Positions 6,826 through 20,815 of a stretch of DNA of 20,815 bases are shown one piece after another. Each line of letters starts with the position of its first letter. The stretch's first letter is position 1. Source of the stretch: a virus; the IMG/VR virus record IMGVR_UViG_3300020171_000553, positions 1 through 20,815 of that record. One strand, 5' to 3'. Both the position numbers and the translations under genes were made by a program. The notes beneath the pieces were generated by a model. It did not search any database and was not told where the DNA came from. It saw only the letters and a program-made list of their open reading frames with translations.

Positions 6826-7323
6826 ATGAGCTTGGGAAAAGAAATCCAACGAGCGCAAGCAAAGATCGAATCGCTCCAGGCAAAAGAAAATGAGATGGAA
6901 GCGATGATTCTTTCCGTGACCCAGGAGCGCGATCTGGCCCAGGCGGCCATCGAATCCGCCATGAAAGCCAGCGAGGAAAAGATTGCCAAGATGCAGGTCG
7001 ATTCAGCCAAACGAATTGACGACCTGAACAAAGCTGGAGCCGACCTTCAGATTGCCCACAAGGATCTGACGGATAAACATTCCGCCCTGATCAAAGAGCT
7101 GGAAGATGCCCGCCAGAAACTGACCAACCCGGCCTTTGCGGACGCAAGCGCCAAAGGCGAGCCGGCCCCGGTTGCCGATGGCGGCCAAGCCGTAGCAGAG
7201 GAAAAAAAGGTTTCCCTGTGGCAACAGTATTACCAGATCAGCGACCCCGTCGAGCGGTCAAAGTTCTGGAATGCCAACGAAAAAGAACTCCGGACTGAAG
7301 CCGGCAAAATCGCTTCCAAGTAA
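6826..7323 (+). CDS. Scaffold-like coiled-coil protein
   Basis: A 165-aa protein. Residues 1-103 are highly charged with heptad-like hydrophobic spacing and almost no Pro or Gly, a long coiled coil. An Ala/Pro/Gly linker follows (about 104-126), then a compact C-terminal segment SLWQQYYQISDPVERSKFW (129-147). A helical rod with a small C-terminal capsid-binding tail is typical of phage scaffolding proteins, and the place between S49 protease and capsid matches lambda Nu3. It is probably needed for prohead assembly and cut by the protease. The start has AGGAGA (6814-6819). The assignment is from architecture and position, not from a specific motif. Confidence 0.65.
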   Translation: MSLGKEIQRAQAKIESLQAKENEMEAMILSVTQERDLAQAAIESAMKASEEKIAKMQVDSAKRIDDLNKAGADLQIAHKDLTDKHSALIKELEDARQKLTNPAFADASAKGEPAPVADGGQAVAEEKKVSLWQQYYQISDPVERSKFWNANEKELRTEAGKIASK

Positions 7324-7345: not shown

Positions 7346-8014
7346 ATGAAAAAAATGATTCTGTTAGGACTGGCGGCGATGGCGATGAACGTCTTTGCCG
7401 CACAGCAAACGCTCAACACCCAGGACGCTACCAAGACGGGATTGGGAAGTCTGATCACCAAGGTCAATGCCAATTTTGTCGAACTTTATGATGGCACCGG
7501 ACTTCCTGATGCGATTGTAACAAATACATCCGTGACTTTGACTCGCCAAGCGGTGGCCAGTGCGACCAACGTAACGGCGACCTCGGCATTGACGATGCAA
7601 CGGCCCGGAGCGCAGACGCCCACGATCACGGTGACGGCCCAGCGACCTGGCGCACAGACGCCCACGATCACGGTGACGGCGCAAACGCCGGGAGTAACAA
7701 CGCCGACGATCACAGTGACGGCGGTGCTGGCAACTAACACGTGGATATATCTGGATGGTTCATCGAATGTGGTGACCAATACGATTGTTTATGTTGCGAG
7801 TGCAACGGCGACAAGTTCAGCATTGCCTGACTTCATCACTAATGCAACAGCGGTAAGTTCTGCATTGCTGGACTACCCAACCAACGCAACGGCGGTGAGT
7901 TCGGCGTTGCTTGACTATCCGACGAACGCGACGGCGGCCGTTACGGTCACGGTTGAACGCGCCGCAGTTGCGGCTCTGACTAACGCGGTTTTGGCGATCC
8001 AGCGCGTTCCGTAA
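7346..8014 (+). CDS. Signal-peptide virion-type protein with 14-residue repeats
   Basis: A 222-aa protein starting at ATG 7346 (GGAG at 7335-7338). It begins MKKMILLGLAAMAMNVFA, a textbook Sec signal peptide with a VFA cleavage site after res 18. Next comes GLGSLITKVNANFVELYDG, a motif seen in phage fibre and decoration proteins. Two sets of 14-residue repeats follow: three copies of QRPGAQTPTITVTA-like units (85-126) and three of SSALLDYPTNATAV-like units (157-198), with almost only small and beta-branched residues, suggesting a fibrous beta structure. The position between scaffold and capsid is the slot of lambda gpD, so a head fibre or decoration protein is likely; a signal peptide there is unexpected. 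An in-frame ATG at 7271 inside the scaffold gene would bury the signal and was not used. Confidence 0.75.
   Translation: MKKMILLGLAAMAMNVFAAQQTLNTQDATKTGLGSLITKVNANFVELYDGTGLPDAIVTNTSVTLTRQAVASATNVTATSALTMQRPGAQTPTITVTAQRPGAQTPTITVTAQTPGVTTPTITVTAVLATNTWIYLDGSSNVVTNTIVYVASATATSSALPDFITNATAVSSALLDYPTNATAVSSALLDYPTNATAAVTVTVERAAVAALTNAVLAIQRVP
7598..7723 (+). repeat. Three 42-bp tandem repeats (coding)
   Basis: Three in-frame 42-bp units at 7598-7639, 7640-7681 and 7682-7723. The first two encode the same 14 residues (QRPGAQTPTITVTA); the third gives QTPGVTTPTITVTA. Each unit ends with ATCAC-GTGACGGC. Confidence 0.9.
7814..7939 (+). repeat. Second set of three 42-bp tandem repeats (coding)
   Basis: Units at 7814-7855, 7856-7897 and 7898-7939 encode SSALPDFITNATAV, SSALLDYPTNATAV and SSALLDYPTNATAA. 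The last two differ at many third codon positions but hardly in protein, so the repeat is old and kept by selection. The period matches the first set although the sequences are unrelated. Confidence 0.88.
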
Positions 8015-8032
8015 CACAATAACTCTGACGAG

Positions 8033-8051
8033 GCGGGGGCAATCCCCCCGC
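8033..8051 (+). promoter_or_regulatory. GC hairpin upstream of gene 8072
   Basis: GCGGGGG (8033-8039) pairs perfectly with CCCCCGC (8045-8051) around a 5-base loop. The C-run could instead pair with GGGGGG at 8058-8063, which is part of the ribosome site GGGGGGAAGGA. Two exclusive folds are thus possible, one exposing and one hiding the site. Confidence 0.5.
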
Positions 8052-8071
8052 TCCGATGGGGGGAAGGATAT

Positions 8072-8515
8072 ATGCGAAAAATAATTTCAAGCCTTTGCAT
8101 CATGGGGTTGGTTGTTGTTGCCACAGCGGATGTGGATCGGGAGATTTTATCAATCACCTCCGGCACCAATGCGTCCGCGACTGTAGCGATAACCAATACC
8201 ACGATTCGGGGCTATATCGACACCATCGTCTTCGATGTTGTCAGCGCCGGGACTACGGGAACTTTGACATTGGTATCCGTTCCTGAATTATCCACACTGG
8301 CCAATGTTACACTGGCGTCAGCAACGGCATGTACAGCAGATACCACATTCCGCCCCCGGTTTAATCCAACTACCACGGACGGAACGGCACTGACGAACGA
8401 TCCGGCCTATACGGTTTATCCCTACGTGTCGGTGGGCGATACCCTGGTGTTTGGGTGTACCAACGCTAATCGGTCGAATATCACATTCAAGGCAATCATA
8501 AAATACGATAAATAA
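8072..8515 (+). CDS. Signal-peptide protein in the capsid-decoration slot
   Basis: A 147-aa protein with GGGAAGGA (8060-8067) before ATG 8072. The N-terminus MRKIISSLCIMGLVVVATA is a Sec signal peptide: positive start, hydrophobic core, ATA cleavage site after res 19. The mature part is Thr/Ser/Asn/Val-rich with beta-strand alternation (IRGYIDTIVFDVVSAGTTG, TLTLVSVPE), fits a small beta-sandwich, and has Cys residues near TACTAD and VFGCTN. No family is recognised. Its place directly before the capsid gene suggests a capsid decoration or stabilising protein, but the signal peptide argues that at least some of it leaves the cytoplasm. Confidence 0.7.
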   Translation: MRKIISSLCIMGLVVVATADVDREILSITSGTNASATVAITNTTIRGYIDTIVFDVVSAGTTGTLTLVSVPELSTLANVTLASATACTADTTFRPRFNPTTTDGTALTNDPAYTVYPYVSVGDTLVFGCTNANRSNITFKAIIKYDK

Positions 8516-8533
8516 ACAATAACCGAAAAATCC

Positions 8534-8554
8534 CGTCGGACTAATTACCCGACG
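8534..8554 (+). promoter_or_regulatory. Hairpin upstream of the capsid terminator
   Basis: CGTCGG (8534-8539) pairs with CCGACG (8549-8554) around a 9-base loop, 15 bases before the terminator stem. It could be part of an attenuator with the next hairpin. Confidence 0.4.
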
Positions 8555-8569
8555 AGGCGAATAATCGCG

Positions 8570-8610
8570 GAGGCCGTTCAGGGCTGAACACCTTTGCGGC
8601 CTCTTTTTTT
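8570..8610 (+). terminator. Rho-independent-type terminator before the capsid gene
   Basis: GAGGCCG (8570-8576) pairs with CGGCCTC (8597-8603), followed directly by seven T (8604-8610). Inside the loop, TTCAG and CTGAA can form a second stem. This is a good intrinsic terminator, placed 24 bases before the capsid ATG and on the same strand. The T7 run can itself pair with A7 at 8615-8621 (stem 8603-8622, loop CGGG). Confidence 0.7.
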
Positions 8611-8634
8611 CGGGAAAAAAAGAAAGGTAAGTAA

Positions 8635-9582
8635 ATGAGTAACACATGGACTAACTCTACATTCACGAATATCGCCCGCACGGGCTTCAAGGCGTTTATC
8701 GCCAAACTGGCGCCCATTGGCGTATTCTCGACGGACTTTTCCGCCGAGATCGCCGACCAGGGCACGGTTGTGGCGACTAGTGTCGTCCCGGCGAGCGATG
8801 CGGCGGTTGATCTCCAGGATACGAGCACGGGCGGCTCCGGGGATCGTGAGTCGGCTAATATCATCAAAGATATTACGACCACGTCTGTCAGCGTGACTCT
8901 TAACCAGCAACCCGTCGCCGGCTTCACTATCACGGATGAAGAAGCGGCCTATATCGGGTCTGGGGTGTGGGAAGATACCAAGACTAGGGTCATTCAAAAT
9001 AAGGCGTGGGCGGTGGCGAATTACGTCCTGGACTATTGTTTTGAATTGATTACCCAGGCGACCTATACGACCACCGAAGTCACGGTCGCCGCGTCCGCCT
9101 TCGACATGGATGACGTGGTTGATCTCTCGGTGCTGGCCTCGGCGGCCGGCTGGGGGACGGACCGCAACTATCTGTGTCTGTGCCCGACTTATCTGGGTGC
9201 CCTGAAAAAGGACAACCAGATTCAAGACCTGTCGGCATCCGGTATCAAGGTGGTTCAGGATGGTCTAATTCCGCGTCTGGATCGGTTCGGCTTGGTTGAA
9301 TTGCCCACGCTTCCCACGGCGGCAGTGTACGGAAGCACGGAATATCTGATGGGCTTCACCTGCGTTCCGTCAGCTATGGCGATTGCCATGCGGGCGGTGC
9401 GGTCACAGGCGGTTGATCAGTTAGCGGCCTACGAGGTTATGACCGACCCGGATAGCGGCGTGACGCTGGTTTATCGGAGTTGGTACAAGCCAGGTACGGG
9501 CAAACTGTATCATACGTTTGAAACCCAGTTCGGCGCCTCCGCCGCTCAGGTAGCTGGTTTGCAGCGCATCGTGTCGCAATAA
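8635..9582 (+). CDS. Probable major capsid protein
   Basis: A 315-aa protein, the best candidate for the coat protein. It comes after portal, protease, scaffold and decoration-slot genes, where lambda E lies; its length fits an HK97-fold subunit; and no other gene in the window fits. A flexible, polar N-terminal part (about 1-80) is followed by a helical segment DEEAAYIGSGVWEDTKTRV and then mixed strands and helices, ending in YRSWYKPGTGKLYHTFE and GLQRIV. There is no signal peptide, unlike the two genes before it. The ribosome site is AAAGG (8623-8627). It has its own translation signal just after a terminator-like hairpin, possibly to set expression separately. No diagnostic capsid motif was recognised. 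Confidence 0.75.
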   Translation: MSNTWTNSTFTNIARTGFKAFIAKLAPIGVFSTDFSAEIADQGTVVATSVVPASDAAVDLQDTSTGGSGDRESANIIKDITTTSVSVTLNQQPVAGFTITDEEAAYIGSGVWEDTKTRVIQNKAWAVANYVLDYCFELITQATYTTTEVTVAASAFDMDDVVDLSVLASAAGWGTDRNYLCLCPTYLGALKKDNQIQDLSASGIKVVQDGLIPRLDRFGLVELPTLPTAAVYGSTEYLMGFTCVPSAMAIAMRAVRSQAVDQLAAYEVMTDPDSGVTLVYRSWYKPGTGKLYHTFETQFGASAAQVAGLQRIVSQ

Positions 9583-9606
9583 GTCGGCGTAGTGCACGGA
9601 AACATC

Positions 9607-9641
9607 ATCGGGGGGGCGGGATTAAACCCCCGCTCCCCGAT
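9607..9641 (+). promoter_or_regulatory. Long GC hairpin after the capsid gene
   Basis: ATCGGGG (9607-9613) pairs with CCCCGAT (9635-9641), and the inner GCGGG (9616-9620) with CCCGC (9629-9633), around an 8-base loop. Only TTT follows the stem, so termination would be weak; it may act as an mRNA end-protector or partial terminator. Its right arm CCCCCGCTCC is shared with the hairpin at 8033-8051. Confidence 0.5.
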
Positions 9642-9660
9642 TTCATAAGGAGGAAAAATT

Positions 9661-9912
9661 ATGCGCGTATCAGTTCTTATCGGCTTGGACCAGGCGGGAA
9701 AATGGGATGCTATCGCATTGCCCGATCGAACAATCGACGATCAGAAAAACCTGTTCAAACAAATAATTTTGAGCGGGGGTAAACTGGAATCGGGGAAAAA
9801 GGGTAAGCCCCAACAGTTCCAGAAAATAATGCGTTTTGACAGGCATGTCAAACGCGCCTCCTTCCGGCATCCTGTTGTTGCGCCCGTAACGCCGCCCCAA
9901 GTGGAGGCGTAA
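9661..9912 (+). CDS. Small hypothetical protein after the capsid gene
   Basis: An 83-aa basic protein with a strong Shine-Dalgarno site AAGGAGG (9648-9654) and a stop 2 bases before the next ATG. It is Lys-rich in the middle (SGGKLESGKKGKPQQFQK) and has a Pro/Val tail. No domain recognised. The start VSVLIGLDQAGKWDAI reads as a beta-hairpin. Its place between capsid and connector genes suggests a virion or assembly role, without further support. Confidence 0.65.
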   Translation: MRVSVLIGLDQAGKWDAIALPDRTIDDQKNLFKQIILSGGKLESGKKGKPQQFQKIMRFDRHVKRASFRHPVVAPVTPPQVEA

Positions 9913-9914
9913 CT

Positions 9915-10550
9915 ATGTGGGGCAAAATCGCCATTGGGACTCGGTTCTATGCCGATCCGCGAGCCGAGTTTGTGGCCTCGCTTCTGCGTCTCGCCGGCTC
10001 GGGATTATGTCCGGGGGATATGATTCTGGAGCCGGTGATTCGCTGGAACGTGGTTACGGCGCTTACGAAGGTATGTCAACGTTTTCTGGCTTCCCCCTGC
10101 GACTCGATGTTGATCTTGGAAGACGATGTTGTTTTTAATCCGGAAGACTTGAAGGCATTGCGTAATTCCGGCCAGGAATACGGAATATTAAGCGCCTTGT
10201 TCCCGGCTCGACGTTATCCGTTCAATCCCCAGGTGTTCCGGTCCATGCGCCGGAGTAAAAATAATATCGAGAATTTGCGCGGGATCATTGACGTGGAAGC
10301 GGTGCCGTTTGGCTTCTGCTTAATTCGCCGGGAGGTGATTCAAAAGATTACCGAGGTTAATGGCGAGCGGATCGCCCGCTGGGGCGTATGCGACGAATGT
10401 ATTTCATTTTGTGAGCAGGTCCGCGGATTCGGTTTTAAGGTTGGAATGAATACCGATGTTTCGGTGGGTCATATCCTTCCGGCCATCCCGGTCTATTGGG
10501 ATCGAGATGATTCAAAGCCAAGGTTCGATTATGACAATCTCAATAAGTGA
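9915..10550 (+). CDS. GT-A glycosyltransferase-like protein 1
   Basis: A 211-aa protein resembling the nucleotide-sugar-binding GT-A fold. MLILEDDVVFNPEDL (65-79) holds the acidic metal motif Glu69-Asp70-Asp71 after a hydrophobic strand. CDEC with Asp160/Glu161 is the likely catalytic acid segment, and VGHILPA with His186 matches the late metal-binding His of GT-A enzymes. It is related to the gene at 12477: both start with (K/V)AIGTR, have (E/D)xD-V-F-x-P-(E/D)-x-L, GILSALFPARRYPF versus DMLSALSVTRRRPF, GFxLIRR and GH. Both may have a sugar donor and attach sugar to virion proteins or modified DNA; acceptor unknown. ATG 9915 has GGAGG at 9903-9907. Confidence 0.75.
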   Translation: MWGKIAIGTRFYADPRAEFVASLLRLAGSGLCPGDMILEPVIRWNVVTALTKVCQRFLASPCDSMLILEDDVVFNPEDLKALRNSGQEYGILSALFPARRYPFNPQVFRSMRRSKNNIENLRGIIDVEAVPFGFCLIRREVIQKITEVNGERIARWGVCDECISFCEQVRGFGFKVGMNTDVSVGHILPAIPVYWDRDDSKPRFDYDNLNK

Positions 10551-10854
10551 TCTTGATGGCGACCTGGACTACGCCATTGCCGACCTTCCCACGGCGCTGA
10601 CCATTACCGGGTTGACCACCGGCGCCAGCGTAAACAGCGTAGCCACGGAGATCAACTCCGGGGAAACACTCCAGATGGCCGGGATGATGCCGGACATTTC
10701 TATTCAATTTTTTGTGCCGACGGTTGCCTTTACGACCCGCCCAGCCAAGGGTCAGACATGTACGGCCGGCGGTGTAACTTATCGCATTCAGAATATCAGG
10801 ACCAGTCCCGACGACGTGGCCCTGACCCTCGAATGTACGGAGGATGAATCATAA
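10531..10854 (+). CDS. Head-tail connector/stopper-like protein
   Basis: A 107-aa protein that overlaps the preceding gene by 20 bases, beginning MTISISDLDGDL. Its C-terminal part KGQTCTAGGVTYRIQNI then DVALTLECTEDES has the pattern of small phage head-closure proteins (G-x-x-V/T-x-x-G-x-x-Y-x-V), a beta-barrel that plugs the portal. The place after the capsid region and before the terminator and gp10-like genes fits. The N-terminal start at 10531 was preferred to 10456, which lies deep in the previous gene. The family is inferred from pattern and order. Confidence 0.6.
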   Translation: MTISISDLDGDLDYAIADLPTALTITGLTTGASVNSVATEINSGETLQMAGMMPDISIQFFVPTVAFTTRPAKGQTCTAGGVTYRIQNIRTSPDDVALTLECTEDES

Positions 10855-11267
10855 TGAAATATATCATTTTCGCTATAATGTTTTTGGCTTGTAACGCATG
10901 GGCGCTTTCACCGGCCACCATCACCATAACCAATCTGCGCGATGAGGCCGAGGCTGACGCTTCATCCGTCGAGTATGTTCGCGGATACCAACTTGTCTTT
11001 ACCAACTGCGTTGCGTATTCCGGCACTTCCACCAGTTCTGCGAAAGAGGATTTAACCGGGTTGACTGTAACCCTGACGCTGGGGTGGCCGTATTCCAACA
11101 TCGTCTATACCGCTACCGCCCAGGTTGCCACGGCTGGAACATGGTCGTGCGCGACCACCGTGCCGACGAATTGGACTACCACCAAAATACAGGTAAAACT
11201 TTCCGGCACTACTTCAACCAACATTTATCCGTTGAAAATACTTAATACCCGCGAGGCGATCAAATGA
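10854..11267 (+). CDS. Signal-peptide beta-rich protein
   Basis: A 137-aa protein whose ATG overlaps the previous stop by one base (TAATG). MKYIIFAIMFLACNAWA is a Sec signal peptide with an AWA cleavage site after res 17; FLAC at 10-13 is close to, but not, a canonical lipobox. The mature part has VRGYQLVFTNC, LTGLTVTLTLG and YTATAQVATAGTW, the pattern of an Ig-like phage baseplate or adhesion domain such as BppU-N (region of the form y-rG-x-x-L...LtG-a-x-v-x-f). It ends 4 bases into the next gene (ATGA). A secreted protein among connector genes is odd. Confidence 0.7.
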   Translation: MKYIIFAIMFLACNAWALSPATITITNLRDEAEADASSVEYVRGYQLVFTNCVAYSGTSTSSAKEDLTGLTVTLTLGWPYSNIVYTATAQVATAGTWSCATTVPTNWTTTKIQVKLSGTTSTNIYPLKILNTREAIK

Positions 11268-11710
11268 CCGCCCCGAATCACAGCATCAAGCGAAAAAGCG
11301 AAGACGCCGTGGCTGGCATAATCAATTCGCTTAAACCATCCGGAACTTTGACCGGAGTGACGGCCTTCAAGGGATTCAGCGGCTCGGACTTATCGGTGCC
11401 GCGATATGAAGTTGTGGCCGCCGAAGCCGAGGCCGAGGTATTTGGGGTCACGATTACCGGTAACTGGACTGTAACTATACGCGTGGCCATGATCAGCAAT
11501 GCCAATGACGATGCGCGGTCCACCCACCAGGCCAACGCCGCTACGATTGAAGACGTGCTCATGCGCGATGACGTGGTTAGCCAACTTAATTCGCAATCGA
11601 TAGGAGATTTCACCGCCTTTTTATGGCACCCGGATTCGGGAACGGACACAGTGGACGGCGATACATTCAAAACCGAAATCAGCGGAACACTTTACGCAAT
11701 GCCGAGTTGA
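11264..11710 (+). CDS. Tail terminator/completion-like protein
   Basis: A 148-aa protein coupled to the gene before by ATGA. It has GNWTVTIRVAMISNANDDARSTH, a central beta-strand then helix (NAATIEDVLMRDDVVSQLN), and DFTAFLWHP near the end. Tail terminator (gpU-like) proteins have a similar alpha/beta layout with a helix carrying I-x-x-x-L-x-x-D-x-x-x-x-L. Position in the neck cluster supports this. The exact family is not certain. Its start lies within the signal-peptide gene's last codons. Confidence 0.55.
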   Translation: MTAPNHSIKRKSEDAVAGIINSLKPSGTLTGVTAFKGFSGSDLSVPRYEVVAAEAEAEVFGVTITGNWTVTIRVAMISNANDDARSTHQANAATIEDVLMRDDVVSQLNSQSIGDFTAFLWHPDSGTDTVDGDTFKTEISGTLYAMPS

Positions 11711-11716
11711 GGCGAT

Positions 11717-12475
11717 ATGCCCGTATCGGGGGAAATAAAGATTGATGATCGGCAATTTCAACAGGCATTGCGGGAATACACCGAGGCCAGCAAGCGGGAT
11801 TGGTCCTATATCCTCAACAAGCAACTTGGAAATGTTGCGGCGCGGGCATCCGGGTATGCCCCACAGGGAAACAAGAGCGATATTGCTGGGTTACCTGGCC
11901 GGGAATGGTGGCCGGCGTTCGTTCAAAAAGTTTTGAAAATGAAGGACGGATTTACCGTCACCATGCGCCGGAAGGCCAGAGGAATGGAACGGTTTGTTCC
12001 ATGGATGGATACGGCAACCAGAGAGATGAGGTTCGGTAGAAAGACCAAGGGTGTCAAGGTCAAGTACCGGGGGAATGTTGGGCGGGATGTTAAAAGGGCG
12101 GAGGCGGTGCGTGTCTCAAGGGCGATCATCAAGCGGCGCATGGCCACGGTCAATTCGATGCGGGCCGTGTTTGGGATTGCTGCCCTGAAGTTTGGGGTGC
12201 CGTTGGGTAAGTTTGAACGGAAAGGGCGAATGTTTGCCCTGCCGGGGCAACTGGCAACACCGAGTCGGCTCACGGCATGGTTCAAAATTCCATGGTCCAG
12301 CAAGAAGAAACCCTGGCCGGGCGGGACGAGGCCCGATGCGGCGGCAGATGTGGCGATGAAAAAACGGATTGGAACGATAGCCCTTCAGCGGGGCATAGAT
12401 TTTGTGGCCAAGGATATGCTCCGGTGGGCAGGCGAGCGAATGCGGGCCACGGCGCGTAAATATTCAGCGAGATAA
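11717..12475 (+). CDS. HK97 gp10-like neck protein
   Basis: A 252-aa very basic protein. The N-terminus IKIDDRQFQQALREYTEAS and ARASGYAPQG follow the HK97-gp10 pattern (x-G-x-x-x-L-x-x-x-L ... a-x-x-x-AP-x-x-T/K-G), proteins that help join tail to head or complete the tail. The family is normally about 100-150 aa; here a Lys/Arg-rich insertion (roughly 75-200) makes it much longer. The C-terminal segment ALQRGIDFVAKDMLRWAGE is helical. GAGGCGAT before ATG 11717 is a weak ribosome site. The gene ends just before the second glycosyltransferase-like gene. Confidence 0.55.
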   Translation: MPVSGEIKIDDRQFQQALREYTEASKRDWSYILNKQLGNVAARASGYAPQGNKSDIAGLPGREWWPAFVQKVLKMKDGFTVTMRRKARGMERFVPWMDTATREMRFGRKTKGVKVKYRGNVGRDVKRAEAVRVSRAIIKRRMATVNSMRAVFGIAALKFGVPLGKFERKGRMFALPGQLATPSRLTAWFKIPWSSKKKPWPGGTRPDAAADVAMKKRIGTIALQRGIDFVAKDMLRWAGERMRATARKYSAR

Positions 12476-12476
12476 A

Positions 12477-13181
12477 ATGAGTAACGCCAAAACTTTTGGA
12501 CGGGTGGCAATAGGCACAAGAATGAATGATCGCTGTGATCCTGTCTTTTTCAATTGCTGGAGCCACATGATCGCCGGCGGGATGCGTACGGGCGACACCG
12601 TTCTGGACGCCGGTATCGAACTCCCGCAGCACTTTGCCGCCGTGGTTCTCGCCAGTTACTTCCTCAAATCCAATGCCGACACCCTCTTGATGGTTGACAC
12701 GGACATGGTTTTCAAACCTGACACGCTCAACCGCCTACGGGATGACGTGGAAGGGCAGGAATATGATATGCTGTCGGCCCTGTCTGTAACCCGCCGCCGG
12801 CCATTCCACCCGATTATCCTGCGCCTGCGCGATAAACCCCTGCCCAACGGGTGCGCGTATGAATGTATCAAACCCAAACCGGAGGACACCATCCTCGAAT
12901 CCGATAGCGTCGGCACGGGCTTTACCTTGATTCGTCGCGCGCTATTTGACCGGATGCGCTCCGAGTTGGGCATTACCAAGTGGTTTTTCGATTGGATGCC
13001 GGGCGGCGGCGGAGAGGATACCATGTTCTGTCAGAACGCCAAACGCCTGGGGGCTAAAATCGGCGTGCATACCCGCGTCAACATCGGACACCGCGGCCCG
13101 ATCACGTTCATCTGGGACGCCGAACAGCAACGATCTGCAATGGAAACGAATGACCAAATCGCGGCAATACTGTCGCAATAA
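12477..13181 (+). CDS. GT-A glycosyltransferase-like protein 2
   Basis: A 234-aa protein. DTLLMVDTDMVFKPDTLNRL (68-87) is a GT-A core with the DxD motif Asp74-Thr75-Asp76; GGGGEDTMF with Glu180/Asp181 is a typical catalytic-acid segment (GEDxxF); and IGHRG with His205 is the late metal ligand. It is a paralogue of the gene at 9915 but has a better DxD and ED motif. No membrane segment or signal is visible, so it is a soluble cytoplasmic enzyme. Its start at 12477 follows the previous stop by one base; the longer upstream frame falls within the gp10-like gene. The acceptor could be virion protein or hydroxylated DNA base. Confidence 0.8.
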   Translation: MSNAKTFGRVAIGTRMNDRCDPVFFNCWSHMIAGGMRTGDTVLDAGIELPQHFAAVVLASYFLKSNADTLLMVDTDMVFKPDTLNRLRDDVEGQEYDMLSALSVTRRRPFHPIILRLRDKPLPNGCAYECIKPKPEDTILESDSVGTGFTLIRRALFDRMRSELGITKWFFDWMPGGGGEDTMFCQNAKRLGAKIGVHTRVNIGHRGPITFIWDAEQQRSAMETNDQIAAILSQ

Positions 13182-13200
13182 TAAAGGAAGGAAATAGTAT

Positions 13201-13569
13201 ATGGCAGCCACGCAAAAAGGAACCACACTTCTGATTTCGTTTGGGAGCTTCCTGTATACCGGCTACATCGCGGAAGATGTCACCGTGAGTTACCCGGACG
13301 GCAACGTGGAAATCATCAAGAACGCCGACGGCGCGACGATTACCAAGATATTCATGGACCCGTCAACGAAGATTGACACAACCGTAATTATCCTGTCCAC
13401 CGGATCGGCTGATCCGCCAAAGGATAATCAAGCCGTTGGTATTATCCCGCCTAAGGGAACGCTGACGACATTCATGAGTTTGGGGTCGACCGCGAAGCAT
13501 GGCGCGGGCGCTACCCGACTCTCCCTCGGATTGATTCTTGAGGATTCAATGGTAGGCAAATATACCTAA
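13201..13569 (+). CDS. Probable major tail (tube) protein
   Basis: A 122-aa protein, with AAGGAAGGAAA (13184-13194) before ATG 13201. It is rich in beta-strand patterns (TTLLISFGSFLYTGYIAEDV, VEIIKNADGATITKIF, IDTTVIIL) with no helix-rich segment until the end, and DPSTKIDTTVIIL resembles tail-tube strands. It comes directly before the tail assembly chaperone and tape measure, the usual slot of the tube protein. It is small for a tube protein, but these range down to about this size. Own ribosome site suggests high expression. Confidence 0.6.
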   Translation: MAATQKGTTLLISFGSFLYTGYIAEDVTVSYPDGNVEIIKNADGATITKIFMDPSTKIDTTVIILSTGSADPPKDNQAVGIIPPKGTLTTFMSLGSTAKHGAGATRLSLGLILEDSMVGKYT

Positions 13570-13592
13570 TCGCGCCATGGAGGATTTTGACA

Positions 13593-14159
13593 ATGCAGGG
13601 CGCTTTTATTCAAAGCCTGACCTTCAACCCGCCGACCGTGCTGGGGCGCAAGTTGATGCCATTCTCCTCCTGGCATCTCTTAGTCTTGGAGGCGGCGGGT
13701 TCTCCTTTCGTCCTCGGCGGTGTTCCCGATATTGATGATCTGGTCGCGGCGATATGGGTCTGCTCCCACGGATTCGCGGAAGGTATTACCATCGCCGGTG
13801 ATGCCCCCGCCATCCGCAAGTGGGCCCGCGCCCAGAAGAAACCCGCATTCACCGCCGCCCGTGCGGCCTTCCAAGACTATATCAACGCCGCCTTCTGCTC
13901 CCCGGAATATTGGTCATCGAGCGACGGTGGCGAGATCCGCGCCCCGGCGTGCTGGCACATGGCCACATTCGCCATGCGCGAGCTACATATGACCGAGCAG
14001 GCGGCGTGGGATTTTCCCGTCAACCGCATCAGTTGCTACCAGGCGTGCGTGGGCGAGATCAACGGCAATAAGGACCTGATGAGCGCCGAAGATATCAAGG
14101 GTGTTGCCACCCTGGAAGCCGATGCCGATAAAGAAAAAGCTGAAAAGGAAAAGAAATAA
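13593..14159 (+). CDS. Tail assembly chaperone-like protein
   Basis: A 188-aa protein with GGAGG (13579-13583) nine bases before ATG 13593; a TTG at 13587 is too close to it. It is mostly helical with a central SPFVLGGVPDIDDLVAAIWV and a charged Lys/Glu tail (about 170-188). It sits between the tube protein and the tape measure, where lambda-type phages encode chaperone G. Its last codons overlap the tape-measure ATG (TAATG). Position and helical makeup are the main support; I see no canonical -1 slippery site. Confidence 0.6.
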   Translation: MQGAFIQSLTFNPPTVLGRKLMPFSSWHLLVLEAAGSPFVLGGVPDIDDLVAAIWVCSHGFAEGITIAGDAPAIRKWARAQKKPAFTAARAAFQDYINAAFCSPEYWSSSDGGEIRAPACWHMATFAMRELHMTEQAAWDFPVNRISCYQACVGEINGNKDLMSAEDIKGVATLEADADKEKAEKEKK

Positions 14160-15406
14160 TGTCCGTCCTGTCAGAACTTACCGCCAAAGCCAGTCTTAAC
14201 GGTGCACAATTTAAGGCCGAGGTCAAGAACATCGGCAACTCCGTAACCTCGCTGGGTTCCAACCAGCTTGCCGGCCTGAAGGGCATGATCGCCGGGGCGT
14301 TCTCCGTGGGGGTGCTGATACAATTCGGACGTAAGATATTGCAGACGGCGGATGATCTCCAGACGGCGGCGAATATATTTGGATTATCGCTTGAAACCAT
14401 GATTGCTTTCAAATCGGTAATGGCCGAGAGCGGGATTGGTGCTGACAGGTTTAATAAAATATTCGGACGGATAGCCAGCGCCCAGGTTGATGTCAGGAAC
14501 GGGTTAGCCACGTACGTTGATGCGCTGAAGGAAATGAATATCAGTTCCGCTGAGTTCCAAAACTTGGGGATCGATAAGGTTTTAGAGTTAATGGCCAAAA
14601 AATATGCGGAGGTCGGGAATAAACAGCAATTTGTCGGAGGCATGACCAAGCTACTTGGCGCCCGCACCATTGATTTGATCGAAGTATTTCAGCGCATGAA
14701 CAAAGAGGGGATGGCTAAATATGCCGAGGAGGCAAAGGTTGCGGCTGACGGGATGAACGTATTGGCGAAGGCGTCTGATAGCTTTGAAAAAGCAGGAAGT
14801 AAAATTATCAACTGGGCGGCAACCGCATTTTGTTGGCTTCAAAAAGTAACCAACGCCGCACTAACCGCTGGATTAGCCTTATGGGGAATGGCGGGAAAGG
14901 GTGGTGGGTTTGTAGATCGCATGCGGGTTATCAAAGAAGGATGGTGGGCCGGTTGGAATATTACATCACCGCCCCCAAAAACTCCCGGTGCCGGTGGTGG
15001 CCCCAGTGGTGTTCCAGGACCTGCCGATGCAGAACTGACCGCAATTAAAAAAACATCAGACGCATGGTTGAAATATTACGATATTCTCGATGATGAAGCT
15101 AAAAAGCAAATGGATCGTGAAGATAAATACATGGGGTTGATAAAGAATCGTCAGGAACTTGAACTTGATTTTGCCAAAAAGAAAGCAGACATCATGGCCG
15201 GCAGGGGTATTACTAGCCCTGAAATGTCACGGATAGACGCTCTTCAGCGGATCGGTGGACTTATCGGTGCCGCCGGCGGAGGGGATCAGGCGGCACGGCG
15301 CGCTGAACGGCAGGAAAAAATACTAGAAGCCACCGAGAGATTACAGCAGGAGCATAATAATAAACTCGATGAAATTAAAACGGCGGTCAACGAATTGAAC
15401 GAGTAA
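14159..15406 (+). CDS. Tail tape measure protein (short)
   Basis: A 415-aa protein. The start LSELTAKASLNGAQFKAEV followed by LKGMIAGAFSVGVLIQFGRK is the typical tape-measure opening (a short domain, then hydrophobic helix at about 37-58). A mid-segment TAGLALWGMAGKGGG is hydrophobic, then a Gly/Pro-rich hinge (PKTPGAGGGPSGVPGP) and a long charged helix to the end (about 300-415). Tape-measure length sets tail length at about 0.15 nm per residue, so a tail of about 60 nm is predicted. ATG 14159 overlaps the chaperone stop. The protein lacks lysozyme or peptidase domains. Confidence 0.75.
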   Translation: MSVLSELTAKASLNGAQFKAEVKNIGNSVTSLGSNQLAGLKGMIAGAFSVGVLIQFGRKILQTADDLQTAANIFGLSLETMIAFKSVMAESGIGADRFNKIFGRIASAQVDVRNGLATYVDALKEMNISSAEFQNLGIDKVLELMAKKYAEVGNKQQFVGGMTKLLGARTIDLIEVFQRMNKEGMAKYAEEAKVAADGMNVLAKASDSFEKAGSKIINWAATAFCWLQKVTNAALTAGLALWGMAGKGGGFVDRMRVIKEGWWAGWNITSPPPKTPGAGGGPSGVPGPADAELTAIKKTSDAWLKYYDILDDEAKKQMDREDKYMGLIKNRQELELDFAKKKADIMAGRGITSPEMSRIDALQRIGGLIGAAGGGDQAARRAERQEKILEATERLQQEHNNKLDEIKTAVNELNE

Positions 15407-15410
15407 TAAT

Positions 15411-16190
15411 ATGGCCATCGCCAACGAAACATTTCATAGCGTCAAGGGGTCTTCCGAGATAATTCCATTACCCGATACGCACACTTGGGATTTAGCTGAC
15501 GGGACGCAAACATTTAAAGAATTTGCCGGAACGAAAGCCGCGATCTTACAAAAGTTCCGCGAACTCGCGGCGGCGGGCGCAGATTCCGGGGTGGACGCCT
15601 TGCGCGATACATATAATGGACAAAGCGGCCGTTTATCATGTCGGGTGATTGATGATTCAGGCGGAGCCGATGGTGGAAACACCGAGGCGGTCAATGCCAT
15701 TTGGGAATTGATTGCCAATGATGTTTTGAAACCGATCGAAACCCATTCCGACTTTGATTCTATCGCCGCCGATCGCAAGCGTGAAATTGAAAACTACGTC
15801 CGAAGCGCCACGGACTATCCGGCCACGCTGTCGGGGGCTGCTGAATTATCGCTTGCTGGTTATTACGCCTACCAGGTTCTCGATTTTCCAGTAACCGAGC
15901 TCATTCTCAGAAAGTCGATTGTGGTATCCAGTCGCTCAACTATTACCGCCGCGTATGCCAACATGAATAGGGTGGTTACGCTGGCGAGCATAGCCCCTCC
16001 ATCCGCTCTGTTGGGAACACTGACCATCCTCCCGTTAATGGGTGGACTCTCTGGTGCATGGGAGTGGTTGAAGAAAGCCCCCCAGGTCCGGCAAGTCGCC
16101 AAACGTAAATTCCAAATTATTTATGAATGGCACGGGGCGGAGCGCTGGGCGGCAATTTATGGCGGATCGTGGACTCCCGCTTATACTTAA
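15411..16190 (+). CDS. Distal tail or minor tail protein
   Basis: A 259-aa protein 4 bases after the tape measure. It shows no domain that I recognise. A segment VVTLASIAPPSALLGTLTILPLMGGLSGAW (about 193-222) is hydrophobic, but with Pro and Gly, so may be a buried or membrane-interacting part. The end PQVRQVAKRKFQIIYEWHGAERW is basic. Position after the tape measure suggests distal tail or baseplate. The ribosome site is weak (only ACGAG), so expression may depend on re-initiation from the preceding gene. Confidence 0.6.
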   Translation: MAIANETFHSVKGSSEIIPLPDTHTWDLADGTQTFKEFAGTKAAILQKFRELAAAGADSGVDALRDTYNGQSGRLSCRVIDDSGGADGGNTEAVNAIWELIANDVLKPIETHSDFDSIAADRKREIENYVRSATDYPATLSGAAELSLAGYYAYQVLDFPVTELILRKSIVVSSRSTITAAYANMNRVVTLASIAPPSALLGTLTILPLMGGLSGAWEWLKKAPQVRQVAKRKFQIIYEWHGAERWAAIYGGSWTPAYT

Positions 16191-16196
16191 GGAACC

Positions 16197-16637
16197 ATGA
16201 CTATTGCCACAAAACGCTGGGTTAGAGATCAAATAGGGGAAGGTCCGGAACATCCCCGCCGGATAGATTTATCAAACGCCGGCGGATTTAAGTTAAATTC
16301 CAAGGTATGTTTTGGTTACAAACTCAATCCCGACGGCGACAATCCCGCCGAGGTTTTGATATACAGCGGTGAAGCACAACATGGCGTCCGGGCGATTATT
16401 GATGTCGTTGATACAAAGATTGTGATAACCGAAGACCTGCAATACGTTTGGGTGGAGTACGTATTGGGGTCAGGGACGGCAATCATTACGGGCCCATCAA
16501 CGAGCAGGCCGGTATCTACGGCGGCAGATAGTACTTTTCGCCAGTGGCTTTATTTGTTTGGGCTGAGTGGCGGAGTGGCGAGTTTGGTGCGGGTTGGGCA
16601 TTTTGGCAACGTAGTTATTCCAGGAGCGTTTGCGTAA
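16197..16637 (+). CDS. Small tail-associated protein
   Basis: A 146-aa protein with AAGGA at 16190-16194 before ATG 16197. It starts TIATKRWVRDQIG and has beta-rich stretches such as FGYKLNPDGDN, VLIYSGEAQHG and IVITEDLQYVWVEYVLG, then a probable receptor- or baseplate-binding end. No family recognised. It is translationally coupled to the endonuclease gene by TAATG, which takes the place of a normal tail gene neighbour. Confidence 0.55.
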   Translation: MTIATKRWVRDQIGEGPEHPRRIDLSNAGGFKLNSKVCFGYKLNPDGDNPAEVLIYSGEAQHGVRAIIDVVDTKIVITEDLQYVWVEYVLGSGTAIITGPSTSRPVSTAADSTFRQWLYLFGLSGGVASLVRVGHFGNVVIPGAFA

Positions 16638-17275
16638 TGGCAACAAAGATATATGTTTTATTGAGTCCAGAAAATGAAATTCGGTATGTAGGGAAGACTA
16701 AAAATTCCCTATCCTCCAGATTTATGGGACATCTTAGTGAGGCCAGGAAAGGATCAAACGGATATCGTTGCAACTGGATAAGATCTCTATTAAAAATTGG
16801 AAAATTGCCAAGTATTCAATTGATTGGCGAAGTTGACGGAGATGGATGTAGAGAAGAAATTGCGTGGATTTCATATTTCAATGAGGATGGAGTGTCGCTC
16901 ACCAACAATACTCTTGGCGGCGATGGGGCTTCAAGAGATTTCACATCATCGGAAACGCGCCAAAAAATAAGCCAAACGCTTATGGGGCATAAATTATCAG
17001 ACGAGACTAAAAATAAAATATCAACAACACTGAAGAAGAATCCCACTAGATATTGGTTGGGTAAAACCAGATTGTTTTCAGAACAGCATTGTAAAAACAT
17101 GAGTCTTTCGAGCCAGGGGCATGTTGGCTGGAATAAGGGAAAAATCACCCCAGATGAAACAAGGAAAAAAATTAGTATAGCTCTAATGGGAAGACCACAC
17201 GGCCCGGTTTCTGAAGAGACAAAAACAAAAATTAGCATCGCGCAGAAGGCAAGATTAAGAAAGATAAATCCATGA
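16637..17275 (+). CDS. GIY-YIG homing endonuclease with NUMOD3-type repeats
   Basis: A 212-aa protein. The GIY-YIG nuclease domain (about 1-90) begins KIYVLLSPENEIRYVGKT: IYV and YVG correspond to the GIY and YIG strands. Arg in LSSRFMGH and Glu in CREEIAWI are the expected catalytic residues. The C-terminal half has three NUMOD3-like DNA-binding repeats (S-x-E-T-x-x-K-I-S-x-x-L-x-G) at about 113-131, 170-184 and 192-205, and GWNKGKI. Such endonucleases cut unoccupied alleles so that their gene spreads. The start at 16637 was chosen for the IYV strand and the TAATG overlap. The region is more AT-rich (24 and 21 GC of 60 in two sampled lines, versus 31 of 60 in the preceding gene), a sign of recent transfer. 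Confidence 0.92.
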   Translation: MATKIYVLLSPENEIRYVGKTKNSLSSRFMGHLSEARKGSNGYRCNWIRSLLKIGKLPSIQLIGEVDGDGCREEIAWISYFNEDGVSLTNNTLGGDGASRDFTSSETRQKISQTLMGHKLSDETKNKISTTLKKNPTRYWLGKTRLFSEQHCKNMSLSSQGHVGWNKGKITPDETRKKISIALMGRPHGPVSEETKTKISIAQKARLRKINP

Positions 17276-18354
17276 GCCTTTCTGTAACTCAACTTAAATA
17301 CGGATGGTTGGCCCTGGCAAGCCTGGGCGTGCTGACCGGAGTGACCATATACATTTCGGGGAATATGCGTAAGACTGTCCAAGTAGAGGATGTAATTCCA
17401 ATTGCGCTGGGCGTTCACGAGCATTGCCTGGCAACACAGTACAGCACAAACCCCGTTCTGTATCGGGTCGATCCGCCGTCTTTTGTTCGCACGTGGTACA
17501 GCAACGTCTATGCGACAAATGGAGTCGCGGTCTTTACGCACACCGTAACCAACACTTTCGGATGGGAAATTGATCGGGCGATGTTGGTTAGTCTGGATAC
17601 AACTATAAAATCACTCGTCCCTTATTATTGCGATTCAAACAATACCTCGCTGACGGTGACGGGATTGTGGGCGTCGCTGGGTATTGGCGATGGAACAAAT
17701 CAGTTTACCAGGACGCCTGTTCTGGGAACAAACTCCGCAACCTACGGCGATTATCCTTGGCAGATTTATAAGGAAGACCTAGTGGAACGATACAAGGTTT
17801 TATATTCGCTGAATCGCACCAAGCCGACCGTGACGCTGGTTCCGTTGGGCAAGTCGGCGGGAGGGATAGGATCGGGATCATGGGCCAACGCGCAATCTGA
17901 TACTGAATCAATTTATGATGGATTAAGCCCATCCGCGGGATCTTATTTTTCTGCTGCTACTGCCGGATATTCGGTTTCCACTAATCCGTATTATTCGGCA
18001 AGAGGTTTGATGACCAGGATTGCGGGACAGATGTACGTTATAGCCTCCACCAGTTTGAATTATACGGCCGTGTTTTATCTTGGTTGCACCAACGCAACTC
18101 CAGGTCAGGTTGTGCCCAGCAATACCACTTATACGTTCGATGCGAATAGCGATACCTATATTGTCGAGGGCTATCATTTGGCCGATACGCAAACCAATTC
18201 GGCCGCGTTGTCAATCGGAAACACAAATTTACCTCATCCAACGTGGTGCTCCGAGCCGGGAATAAATCAAGATAAAGTGAGGGGTTACAAAACCTATGCC
18301 CACGACATTATCCTGGACTGGGAGTTCTATTACTGTACGAATAAATTTTGGTGA
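17272..18354 (+). CDS. Membrane-anchored virion-type protein
   Basis: A 360-aa protein. YGWLALASLGVLTGVTIYISG (about 10-30) is one hydrophobic segment near the N-terminus with no clear cleavage site, so a signal anchor is likely and the bulk would be outside the cytoplasm. The rest is Thr/Ser/Tyr-rich with beta-strand patterns and several Cys (CLATQYS, YYCDS, LGCTNATPG, WCSEPG, YYCTN), perhaps disulphide-bonded. No family recognised. ATGA couples it to the endonuclease stop. The position among tail-tip and fibre genes suggests a tail or adhesion role. It is uncertain why a virion protein has an anchor. Confidence 0.65.
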   Translation: MSLSVTQLKYGWLALASLGVLTGVTIYISGNMRKTVQVEDVIPIALGVHEHCLATQYSTNPVLYRVDPPSFVRTWYSNVYATNGVAVFTHTVTNTFGWEIDRAMLVSLDTTIKSLVPYYCDSNNTSLTVTGLWASLGIGDGTNQFTRTPVLGTNSATYGDYPWQIYKEDLVERYKVLYSLNRTKPTVTLVPLGKSAGGIGSGSWANAQSDTESIYDGLSPSAGSYFSAATAGYSVSTNPYYSARGLMTRIAGQMYVIASTSLNYTAVFYLGCTNATPGQVVPSNTTYTFDANSDTYIVEGYHLADTQTNSAALSIGNTNLPHPTWCSEPGINQDKVRGYKTYAHDIILDWEFYYCTNKFW

Positions 18355-18418
18355 ACGATGTCTGATAGTCGCCGGCTAACCGTGGCAACGAGTAAATGCT
18401 ATCAAGGAAAATGGTGAA

Positions 18419-18865
18419 ATGAATATCTTCTGGGATATCCAGGGACAGCAACTAATCCCCGGCCTTAACGGGGGGGGGGCGATAACGCTCTATACTGTTG
18501 TCCTGCGCGATGTGTGGCCCGTCTCGCTCTATCTCTGCGCGGAGCAGAGCAATATCAATGTCCCGTATGCCGTGAGCGCAATTACTTCCGGCCATGCGGT
18601 AAAATTTGGGGCCAAGTCTGCCCTGACCGCCACGACCTATCTTTCCGAGCAGGCCACATGGACATCTGCCGGATCGGGGAGCACCCAGCGATACGAGGCC
18701 AGTATCCCGCTTGACGGCGCCGCCCTGATTGCCGCGATGACCGGCTTGATGGCGCTGGATCTTATCGCGGAATTTACCACGCGGGATGCGGACGGAAATG
18801 AATATCTCAGTACACAATTCAACATCACGGTCGTGCCCGACGTGATTACCGGGAGCGAATCATGA
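18419..18865 (+). CDS. Tail-tip/baseplate-like protein A, with G10 tract
   Basis: A 148-aa protein with AAGGA (18404-18408) upstream of ATG 18419. Residues 2-35 and LRDVWPVSLYLCAEQSNINVPY, then AVKFGAK, are shared with the first 150 residues of the next gene, so these two are tandem paralogues. A run of ten G at 18470-18479 encodes the Gly-Gly-Gly of NGGGAI near residue 18-20, early enough that slippage would abolish the protein. No known domain, but the beta-rich Ser/Thr composition fits a fibre or baseplate part. ATGA overlap with the next gene. Confidence 0.65.
   Translation: MNIFWDIQGQQLIPGLNGGGAITLYTVVLRDVWPVSLYLCAEQSNINVPYAVSAITSGHAVKFGAKSALTATTYLSEQATWTSAGSGSTQRYEASIPLDGAALIAAMTGLMALDLIAEFTTRDADGNEYLSTQFNITVVPDVITGSES
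18470..18479 (+). repeat. Poly-G tract (G10) inside a coding region
   Basis: Ten consecutive G in codons 18-21 of the gene at 18419. In the paralogue at 18862 the aligned residues are NSTTKI, without a homopolymer, and the alignment has no gap, so the tract as read keeps the frame open. Homopolymers of this length are typical slippage sites. Confidence 0.9.
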
Positions 18866-19536
18866 GTTTAAATCTATATTGGAGTCTCGGGGAACAAAAG
18901 CTGGTGTCGTCCCTGAACAGCACCACGAAGATCGAACGCTACGACTTCGTGCTCCGCGACACTCTCCCGGTTGTCCTGCGGGTATGCAACGAGCAATCGA
19001 ATATCAACGTGCCCTACATCGTGACGGCCATTGACGCCGGATCGGCCATCAAGTTTGGAGCCAAGGCGCTGGCGACCTATGCCACGGATGCCAATTTCCT
19101 TTTCTCGCAGGCAACCTGGACCAAGACCGGGACCGGGGAATCAACTATCTATTCCGCCAATATCCAGCTGAACACGGCGGAACTTATCACGGCGATCGGA
19201 ACGTCAGACTATATTGATTGCAAGGCTGAATTTACCATCCTGAACGGCTCGAATGAAAACGAGTTATCCACCCAGTTCACATTGAGAATATATAAGGATG
19301 TCATCCAGGGCTCGGAAGGCGTGCCATCATCCCAGTTTGCATCAATCGCGCAATATACGGATGACAATGGGGTCCAGGGTGTGAGGCTAGTGGATGCCGA
19401 CGGGGTGGTGGCGGGGATCTGTAAGAAGGGGTGCTTCTATCCGTTCTGCGCGTCCACCGGACTGTATTATCCGCTCTCAATAATTATTCAAGACACCGTT
19501 CCGACTATATCGATAGGCGCCGGGGAGGCAAACTGA
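18862..19536 (+). CDS. Tail-tip/baseplate-like protein B, paralogue of A
   Basis: A 224-aa protein whose first 150 or so residues match protein A: LYWSLGEQKLVSSLN versus IFWDIQGQQLIPGLN, then EQSNINVPYIVTAID and AIKFGAK. It adds a C-terminal domain of about 70 residues (from VPSSQFASIAQYTDDNGVQ) that ends PTISIGAGEAN. The extra part has Cys in AGICKKGCFYPFCAS. Beta-rich; probably a fibre or baseplate component formed by duplication and extension. Coupled at both ends (ATGA, TGATG). Confidence 0.65.
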   Translation: MSLNLYWSLGEQKLVSSLNSTTKIERYDFVLRDTLPVVLRVCNEQSNINVPYIVTAIDAGSAIKFGAKALATYATDANFLFSQATWTKTGTGESTIYSANIQLNTAELITAIGTSDYIDCKAEFTILNGSNENELSTQFTLRIYKDVIQGSEGVPSSQFASIAQYTDDNGVQGVRLVDADGVVAGICKKGCFYPFCASTGLYYPLSIIIQDTVPTISIGAGEAN

Positions 19537-20815
19537 TGAAAAAAATAATGATTATAACGTCTTTACTGCTGGCCGGCCAGATCGTCTTCGGCGCTCTAGG
19601 AATTACCAGCCTGGGACCGACGAATATCACCACCACCAGCGCCTATTTCCGGGCGAGCGTGACCACCAACTTGATCACGCCGACCAATACCCTGTTCTAC
19701 GGTACCGTGGACTATACGACCAACGCCGCCAGCTGGGCGTACAGCAACGTCTATGGCGCCGGCGCCGGGACAATCAGCACCCAGATCACGGGCTTGTCGC
19801 CTTCGCATAAATATTATTTCCGCTGGCGAGCCAATGACGGGACCAGCAACCTCTGGACTTCGACCACCAGTTCAAACTTTTGGACCATGCCCACAGCGCC
19901 GACCAGCACACCGGCGGTCGTGACGATTTCAGTTCAGACCGACACTAATGCCGTCCTGAAATCACCCACCAATTTTTTTGGGGCGAACAAGGCGCTGATG
20001 AATACCGCCCTGGCGTCTTACGGGTTTTTGACCAATGAACCAACTTTTACAAACTGGCTACCGACGTTCACGGCGCATACGAATAACAGCGGAGCAAACA
20101 TCCTACACCTCACGACGGCTGAAAAACTGCTGGCGACCAACGCATATCAGATTCAGAACGGGAACAGCGTCAGCGGACAGGTGGCAATTCTGAATACAAA
20201 TACGGCTCCGCTACAATCGTATTTGAGTACATCAAACACTTTGGGAATTGTGCTGACGAATTACTTCCCGTTGCAATCGGGGTTGTCGGGATCGAACGAT
20301 CTTGCGATAATCAAGACGAATTACACGACCATCCCAGCATTCACGTCGCACACGAATAACAGCGGAGCGAACATCCTACACCTCACGACGGCTGAAAAAC
20401 TGCTGGCGACCAATGCTGTGCAACCGGACAATACCAACTACCTATCCATCATCCGTTCCATGACCAACTATGTTGCCGTGGCCTCGGCGACGAATTACCT
20501 CACATACGACCCCGCAACGCGGTTGCTGACTGGATGCGTGACGAACAGCGGCGGTGGATTGGCGTCCGATTGGTCAGCATACCCCGCAACGCAGACGGTC
20601 GCGATGGCGAGTAATAATATCGTAGGTGTTGACGATCTGCTGTTGGCCCAATTCGCGCAGATATGGGAGAAATACGAAGTCAAAAATATCACCTTCCCCT
20701 GGGGTACAGTTAGTCGCGGGGGAAGTTACACAGTTGTTTCCCAGACCAACCAACAGTCGGGGGCCTACTCTAAATTCCTGGTTCTGACTCCCTTGAACCG
20801 CACAAATATATTCCT
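19536..20815 (+). CDS. Signal-peptide fibre-like protein with FN3-type domain (partial)
   Basis: The frame opens at ATG 19536 (TGATG overlap with the previous stop) and stays open to the window end, 426 codons. MKKIMIITSLLLAGQIVFG is a Sec signal peptide with a VFG cleavage site after res 19. Residues about 22-118 resemble an FN3 domain: ITSLGPTNITTTSAYFRA, then TQITGLSPSHKYYFRWRAND, the classic LxPxxxYYF(R) end of FN3. Two copies of a 26-residue unit with HLTTAEKLLATN follow (res 178-203 and 269-294); the HLTxxEK element is common in phage tail fibres. Asn/Thr/Ser-rich throughout. It is probably a tail fibre or adhesin; the C-terminus lies outside the window. Confidence 0.8.
   Translation, partial: MKKIMIITSLLLAGQIVFGALGITSLGPTNITTTSAYFRASVTTNLITPTNTLFYGTVDYTTNAASWAYSNVYGAGAGTISTQITGLSPSHKYYFRWRANDGTSNLWTSTTSSNFWTMPTAPTSTPAVVTISVQTDTNAVLKSPTNFFGANKALMNTALASYGFLTNEPTFTNWLPTFTAHTNNSGANILHLTTAEKLLATNAYQIQNGNSVSGQVAILNTNTAPLQSYLSTSNTLGIVLTNYFPLQSGLSGSNDLAIIKTNYTTIPAFTSHTNNSGANILHLTTAEKLLATNAVQPDNTNYLSIIRSMTNYVAVASATNYLTYDPATRLLTGCVTNSGGGLASDWSAYPATQTVAMASNNIVGVDDLLLAQFAQIWEKYEVKNITFPWGTVSRGGSYTVVSQTNQQSGAYSKFLVLTPLNRTNIF
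20067..20144 (+). repeat. 78-bp direct repeat, copy 1 (fibre gene)
   Basis: In frame, 26 codons (FTAHTNNSGANILHLTTAEK, then LLATNA). Copy 2 lies at 20340-20417, 273 bp on, differing at only five visible bases, mostly synonymous. Confidence 0.88.
20340..20417 (+). repeat. 78-bp direct repeat, copy 2 (fibre gene)
   Basis: In-frame copy of the unit at 20067-20144; the one residue change is Ala to Ser at position 3. The near-identical nucleotides suggest recent duplication or gene conversion. Confidence 0.88.

Follow-up and report, generated by a model that had tools for sequence, protein, structure and literature searches.

Why should genes inside the virion operon of a tailed phage begin with export signals? 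The question is raised by a 20,815-bp viral metagenome record (IMG/VR record IMGVR_UViG_3300020171_000553, positions 1 to 20,815; hereafter the window). In it, four genes, at 7346, 8072, 10854 and 19536, start with predicted cleavable Sec signal peptides, and a fifth, at 17272, starts with a membrane segment. We know of no tailed phage that makes outer coat proteins beyond the host membrane. The answer that we favour, at a probability of roughly 0.45, is that outer virion proteins are exported and dress the particles at lysis; part of the apparent outer coat is probably made beyond the host membrane.

Signal peptides in the window

The window holds a lambda-type head module, in the order GpA terminase, small genes, lambda-type portal, S49 protease, coiled-coil scaffold, the genes at 7346 and 8072, and major capsid protein, followed by connector and tail genes, a tape measure and tail-end genes. 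Two of the signal-bearing genes lie between the scaffold (from 6826) and capsid (from 8635) genes and one among the connector genes, as an earlier note on this DNA had placed them. The first, SP1 (7346-8014, plus strand, as are all structural genes of the window given coordinates here), encodes a fibre-like protein beginning MKKMILLGLAAMAMNVFA/AQQT, where the slash marks the predicted cut, after residue 18 (NVFA/AQQ). The second, SP2 (8072-8515), encodes a cement-like beta-sandwich protein beginning MRKIISSLCIMGLVVVATA/DVDR (site ATA/DVDR). SP3 (10854-11267, 137 amino acids), among the connector genes, begins MKYIIFAIMFLACNAWA/LSPA (AWA/LSPA), and a tail-fibre-like protein with repeats of HTNNSGANILHLTTAEKLLATNA (19536-20815, open at the window end) begins MKKIMIITSLLLAGQIVFG/ALGI (VFG/ALGI). 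A positive n-region, an uncharged h-region and small residues at -3 and -1 were seen in all four, and both the N-termini and the AxA-type sites are as the earlier note described them. The tail-region protein at 17272-18354 carries the membrane segment QLKYGWLALASLGVLTGVTIYISGN, also described in that note, for which no good cleavage site was found and which is predicted to stay as an uncleaved anchor; the suggestion that the hydrophobic N-termini serve as anchors fits this protein and is disfavoured for the four signal peptides. The mature part of SP1 opens with the motif QDATKTGLxxLxxKVNANFxELY, after which repeats follow, and QSFTDINSPQYYGK is an example of a predicted mature N-terminus. A Shine-Dalgarno-like site at usable spacing precedes each of the five starts, and the longer open reading frame from 7271 is not favoured for SP1 because its homologues too start at MKK.

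Signals were called by a home-made score, which detected six of seven E. coli proteins annotated as exported and flagged one of 30 presumed to be soluble, the lone case being ybhI, an annotated transporter. On the late operons of four unrelated phages, none of 74 annotated coding sequences was flagged. Residue shuffles matched the real score in 1-16 of 3000 cases for the four signal peptides and in 31 of 3000 for 17272. Searches with the five proteins against Pfam, PHROGs, NCBIfam and phage isolates gave no usable match. Conservation among relatives is a stronger test of the predicted signals than this score, and such conservation was found.

Conservation and selection across a clade

Relatives of graded distance were gathered via stepwise alignment of the capsid protein together with alignment of the portal. 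In the closest relatives first found, L094-L100 (n = 7, capsid identity 43-57%), each of the seven has a pair of signal-peptide genes precisely in the scaffold-capsid interval, and most of these match 7346 or 8072 by direct blast and the remainder by profile. L174 (capsid 57%) has one signal gene in this slot, of the 7346 family and adjoining a ClpP-type protease-scaffold gene; further loci with signal genes are L205, L207, L211-L215 and L225, and in L200 the slot is occupied by a similar signal gene. The order is slightly different in L205 and L211, where the signal genes come after the protease and before the scaffold. The slot is empty in phages whose capsid protein is about 30% identical, and signal genes are absent from L203, L208-L210 and L216. 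The portal tree contains a supported group of 14 rows, 13 of which have signal genes. When predicted genes preceded by a ribosome-binding site were counted, a signal was borne by 30 of the 276 in clade loci and by 5 of the 1290 in outgroup loci (four of these five apparently tape-measure proteins); the corresponding Fisher p of 9e-19 overstates the contrast because the clade loci were partly picked for signal genes and the loci are related.

We further asked how closely the signal is bound to its families. Profile searches seeded with signal-bearing members, in which the signal was not demanded of matches, recovered 14 SP1 and 12 SP2 members, all of them signal-bearing once the correct start was taken (from gene maps for the SP1 of L096 and L097 and the SP2 of L098). 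A DNA pattern built from codons of the mature part only returned one extra SP1 (L225), also signal-bearing. The SP1 signal is kept in 15 of 15 members (the window and 14 loci), all in or adjoining the scaffold-capsid slot, and the SP2 signal in all members. Homologues lacking the hydrophobic N-terminus, which the earlier note had named as evidence against export, were not found for either family; they do exist for two other proteins, VP3 and a capsid neighbour in L207, described below.

Identity between the signal sequences has fallen to about 35%, yet they still look functional: when 30 codons were left to drift neutrally in simulation down to 35% identity, the signal survived in 8.5% of 1320 trials, compared with all 22 of the real homologues. 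Most SP1 members have a short hydrophobic stretch of variable sequence that closes with VxA, AxA or SxA directly before the conserved mature start, QSFTDI or similar (VMA/QSFTDI, VFA/QSFRDI, AHA/QSFTDL, VFA/ASFTDI and SIA/QQSFTD), which is the signature of predicted signal peptidase I cleavage. Judged from these sequences, the SP1 and SP2 signals are maintained by selection, and the view of the earlier note that the virion operon contains a non-accidental set of export signals is upheld by their conservation across the clade. A faster divergence of the signal than of the mature part was not confirmed, pairwise identities being similar (0.33 versus 0.39 for SP1, 0.37 versus 0.33 for SP2).

One gene without a signal in the same slot, L201 4609-5019, was considered as a signal-less homologue and rejected, as it matched neither the SP1 nor the SP2 profile; it is serine-rich, has KLNALIEAVNA-type helices and is possibly an unrelated occupant of the slot. 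The more distant relative L175 has signal-peptide genes elsewhere in the structural module (7636-8331 and 13037-14968), and the distant outgroup locus L156 has one (10717-11319). Two genome scans over 84,980 species, with capsid and with portal, found no prophage; a single-protein scan with the capsid sequence gave no match, and one with the terminase returned generic lambda-like phages only.

Proteins that carry a signal and their possible roles

In the loci mapped, no signal was seen on terminase, portal, protease, scaffold, capsid or tail-tube genes. Signals were found on SP1, SP2, the extra capsid neighbour in L207, VP3 in two phages and tail-end genes (L095, L197, L211 and 19536 of the window), and are thus confined to proteins of putative peripheral, decoration or fibre type. 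Four consecutive tail-end genes in L197 (11363-14362, minus strand), from the 32-kb relative G001, all bear signals, the largest encoding 504 amino acids; the homologue of that largest protein in L095 (at 18134), which has a weak BppU_N match, bears one too.

Two proteins occur both with and without a signal. VP3, encoded at a syntenic position behind the tail terminator gene, has a signal in L200 and L205, where TDEITV or ADEISV follows it, and has none in L100, L212, L201 and L211, where the protein starts MADEF, MADEI or MSQEI. A fold search told little about VP3, whose model is jelly-roll-like, with a best Z of about 9 to non-phage proteins and an N-terminus of low predicted local distance difference test score (pLDDT). 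The signal-bearing product of L207 2549-3115, beside the capsid gene, matches phrog_11997 (3.6e-16) and gp7 of Pseudomonas phage JG054 (Nipunavirus), which likewise adjoins the major head gene, directly behind it, but has no signal peptide. Proteins of phage structural modules have therefore gained or lost signals, and the pattern points to putative virion-type proteins that were given a signal, rather than to generic secreted adhesins.

By gene order, the SP1/SP2 slot, next to the major capsid gene, is the counterpart of the head-decoration slot, as in Nitratiruptor phage NrS-4, which is annotated with protease IV, head decoration protein and major capsid protein in this order. The AlphaFold2 model of SP2 is a beta sandwich (pLDDT 77, core 85-90). 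When it was compared with solved structures by VIA-align, the capsid cement protein of KHP40 ranked first (Z 9.4, root-mean-square deviation 3.7, 106 aligned) and that of KHP30 third (Z 9.0); the matches also included one chain from the Pam1 capsid unit (Z 7.7). KHP40 and KHP30 are Helicobacter phages, and their cement proteins are trimeric.

The fuller form of the favoured reading is a tailed-phage virion built in two compartments, with core head and tail made in the cytoplasm, Sec-exported outer decoration and fibre proteins in the periplasm, and final dressing during lysis; we hold it tentatively, at somewhat under even odds. Peripheral virion proteins of this siphophage-like clade (SP2 as decoration or cement protein, fibre-like SP1 and several tail appendage proteins) would carry type I Sec signal peptides, be produced together with the other late proteins and then be exported by the host Sec machinery. 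Signal peptidase I would cut them and leave a mature pool in the periplasm, and heads and tails would assemble in the cytoplasm from signal-less core proteins. Once holin and endolysin open the inner membrane, the particles would come into contact, within a small volume, with the periplasmic pool and be dressed with decoration and fibre proteins before or during release. Of the accounts considered, this is the simplest that takes in all the observations. The sequences themselves show the signals, their conservation and selection, their restriction to genes of peripheral type and their presence or absence on homologous phage proteins; real export, the joining of mature proteins to the virion and the timing are the steps that we infer. 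If the exported proteins do join the virion, the rule of wholly cytoplasmic tailed-phage assembly needs an exception, and the lytic pathway, in which the inner membrane is opened before the outer membrane ruptures, gains a function as an assembly step; dressing at lysis, if true, would be a categorically new mode of assembly.

Several points weigh against this dressing of virions. The virion membership of the signal-bearing proteins is putative. In the virion proteome of Alteromonas phage R7M, a relative of JG054, a single hypothetical protein was reported, ORF28 and not the capsid neighbour ORF27, and the gene at the place of JG054 gp7 is outside the reported virion list (PMC8265664). The C-termini of SP1 are too variable for a uniform capsid role, and no homologue of 10854 or 19536 was found among the loci gathered. 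Unrelated beta sandwiches tie with the cement matches of the SP2 model (PHM, Z 9.3), and the cement role is therefore supported, not proven; SP2 had no significant match to a curated decoration family in Pfam, PHROG or NCBIfam. The product of 19536 matched no Pfam or PHROG family; it stands at the end of the tail module and has repeats, and a motif suggests that it may be a fibre. Disulfide formation as the reason for export is unsupported, the mature parts having 0-2 cysteines that are not conserved.

The main rival, possible but in our view doubtful, is a secreted set that stays with the host envelope. Late in infection such proteins would cover receptors or bind debris and so prevent superinfection or the loss of progeny, or they would alter the cell surface, and their virion-like fold would come from decoration or fibre ancestry. 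Signals that are selected and look functional suit this explanation, as do mature parts that are mostly of fibre or jelly-roll character and fit for binding glycans or receptors, the several independent signal-bearing proteins in one phage (G001) and a virion membership that is putative. However, it leaves two genes locked between scaffold and capsid across divergent phages, in the place that a decoration gene has elsewhere (NrS-4), and the signal-less versions of VP3 at the same locus are hard to reconcile with an envelope role. Surface genes of the lambda lom type are located away from the scaffold-capsid slot. If the proteins do stay off the virion, the clade would have recruited decoration-slot genes into a conserved set of secreted proteins, a late exported function of a new kind.

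It is unlikely that the N-termini are instead virion anchors or capsid-targeting peptides cut by the phage S49 prohead protease, a family related to the signal peptide peptidase SppA. The signal genes do directly follow the S49 protease and scaffold genes, and internal head proteins of phage T4 have removable N-terminal targeting peptides. We set S49 processing aside because phages with a ClpP-type protease-scaffold gene in place of S49 (L174 by Pfam; L212, L213 and L225 by sequence likeness) keep the same signals. Tail-end genes in L197 and L095 also bear this type of signal without a link to the head, and the full pattern of n-region, h-region and -3/-1 residues is that of Sec substrates, on which the host Sec machinery would be expected to act.

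Quite improbable is a particle completed at or beyond the inner membrane, by exit to the periplasm or by budding, with SP1, SP2 and the anchored 17272 protein as assembly factors there. A homologue of 17272 in L200 (from about 15291, E 3.1e-23) has a conserved, similar anchor sequence, and the signal-bearing proteins cover both head and tail-fibre positions; against this, the core consists of ordinary lambda-type packaging, portal, protease, scaffold and tail genes, pointing to cytoplasmic assembly, and no envelope or secretin-type genes were recognised. Chance or misannotated starts, from which short hydrophobic N-termini do arise at a low rate (1-31 of 3000 shuffles), are very improbable given the conservation in all family members and the enrichment at clade level, being refuted by conservation for 7346 and 8072 and retaining a small probability for the singletons 10854 and 19536.

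Known phages and neighbouring genes

The closest parallels each share part of this arrangement. Like the decoration and cement proteins of tailed phages (the lambda gpD type, KHP30/KHP40, Pam1), SP2 is a small beta-rich protein encoded in a slot beside the major capsid gene, whereas each window protein in that slot has a Sec signal peptide; to our knowledge, the decoration proteins described so far stay in the cytoplasm and bear no signal. The coat proteins of filamentous phages (inovirus pVIII and pIII) are virion proteins exported by way of Sec signal peptides, as is proposed here, but inoviruses assemble in the membrane without a capsid head, whereas the core encoded in the window is that of a tailed-phage head, including terminase, portal, protease and tape measure. 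Lambda Lom and Bor, surface proteins of lysogenic conversion, are likewise phage-encoded exported proteins among late genes. They are single moron genes outside the head-assembly core, unlike the conserved pair between scaffold and capsid and the several signal-bearing tail-end genes seen here.

The SP1-SP3, 17272 and 19536 families were not found in the isolate phages of the collection searched, at tblastn sensitivity. The earlier note had thought the system undescribed, and our searches agree in giving no account of such a set, nor of any tailed-phage decoration or fibre protein with a Sec signal, in a literature coverage that is incomplete and leaves out most subscription journals, so that absence is not proof. 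Verrucophage P8625 resembles the source of the window in being an environmental siphophage of an under-sampled host group; its authors ran SignalP and found a signal peptide in none of 52 proteins (PMC4642752).

The signal-less core of the window is conventional. It comprises the terminase large subunit of the GpA family (1527-3293; PF05876, 1.2e-51, and PF20454, 1.6e-23), the lambda-family portal protein (4312-5901; PF05136, 3.3e-55) and the major capsid protein (8635-9582; phrog_283 major head protein, 2.7e-12). An S49-family prohead protease resembling lambda gpC (5888-6724; PF01343, 4.4e-34) precedes the coiled-coil scaffold-like protein (6826-7323), which was assigned by position and by homologues in L094-L099. 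The replacement of the S49 protease by a scaffold-fused ClpP-type protease in L174 (5165-6433), L212 (5653-6801), L213 (5042-6166) and L225 (2781-3911, reverse complement), with flanking genes still homologous, is a module swap inside one clade. L209 (8329-10506), L210 (9062-11198) and L216 (6579-8600) each have two tandem capsid-protein paralogues.

Towards the tail end, two paralogues without a signal adjoin each other: an adaptor-like protein (18419-18865), in whose outgroup-phage homologues no signal was detected, and the protein of 18862-19536, to which a segment within long fibre-like proteins of other phages is related. A homing-type endonuclease of the GIY-YIG/NUMOD3 kind (16637-17275) is inserted between tail-end genes. 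Two homologous glycosyltransferase-like genes (9915-10550 and 12477-13181; phrog_1574, 12406, 34859) lie within the late operon, after the capsid/connector genes and before those of the tail; one homologue is kept at that place in L096, L099 and L100, and L014 carries, behind the capsid gene, a different one of glycosyltransferase-like type. The terminase is immediately preceded, at 2-1198, by an ATPase (ABC/AAA) fused to a GNAT acetyltransferase, with a 42% identical homologue in L155.

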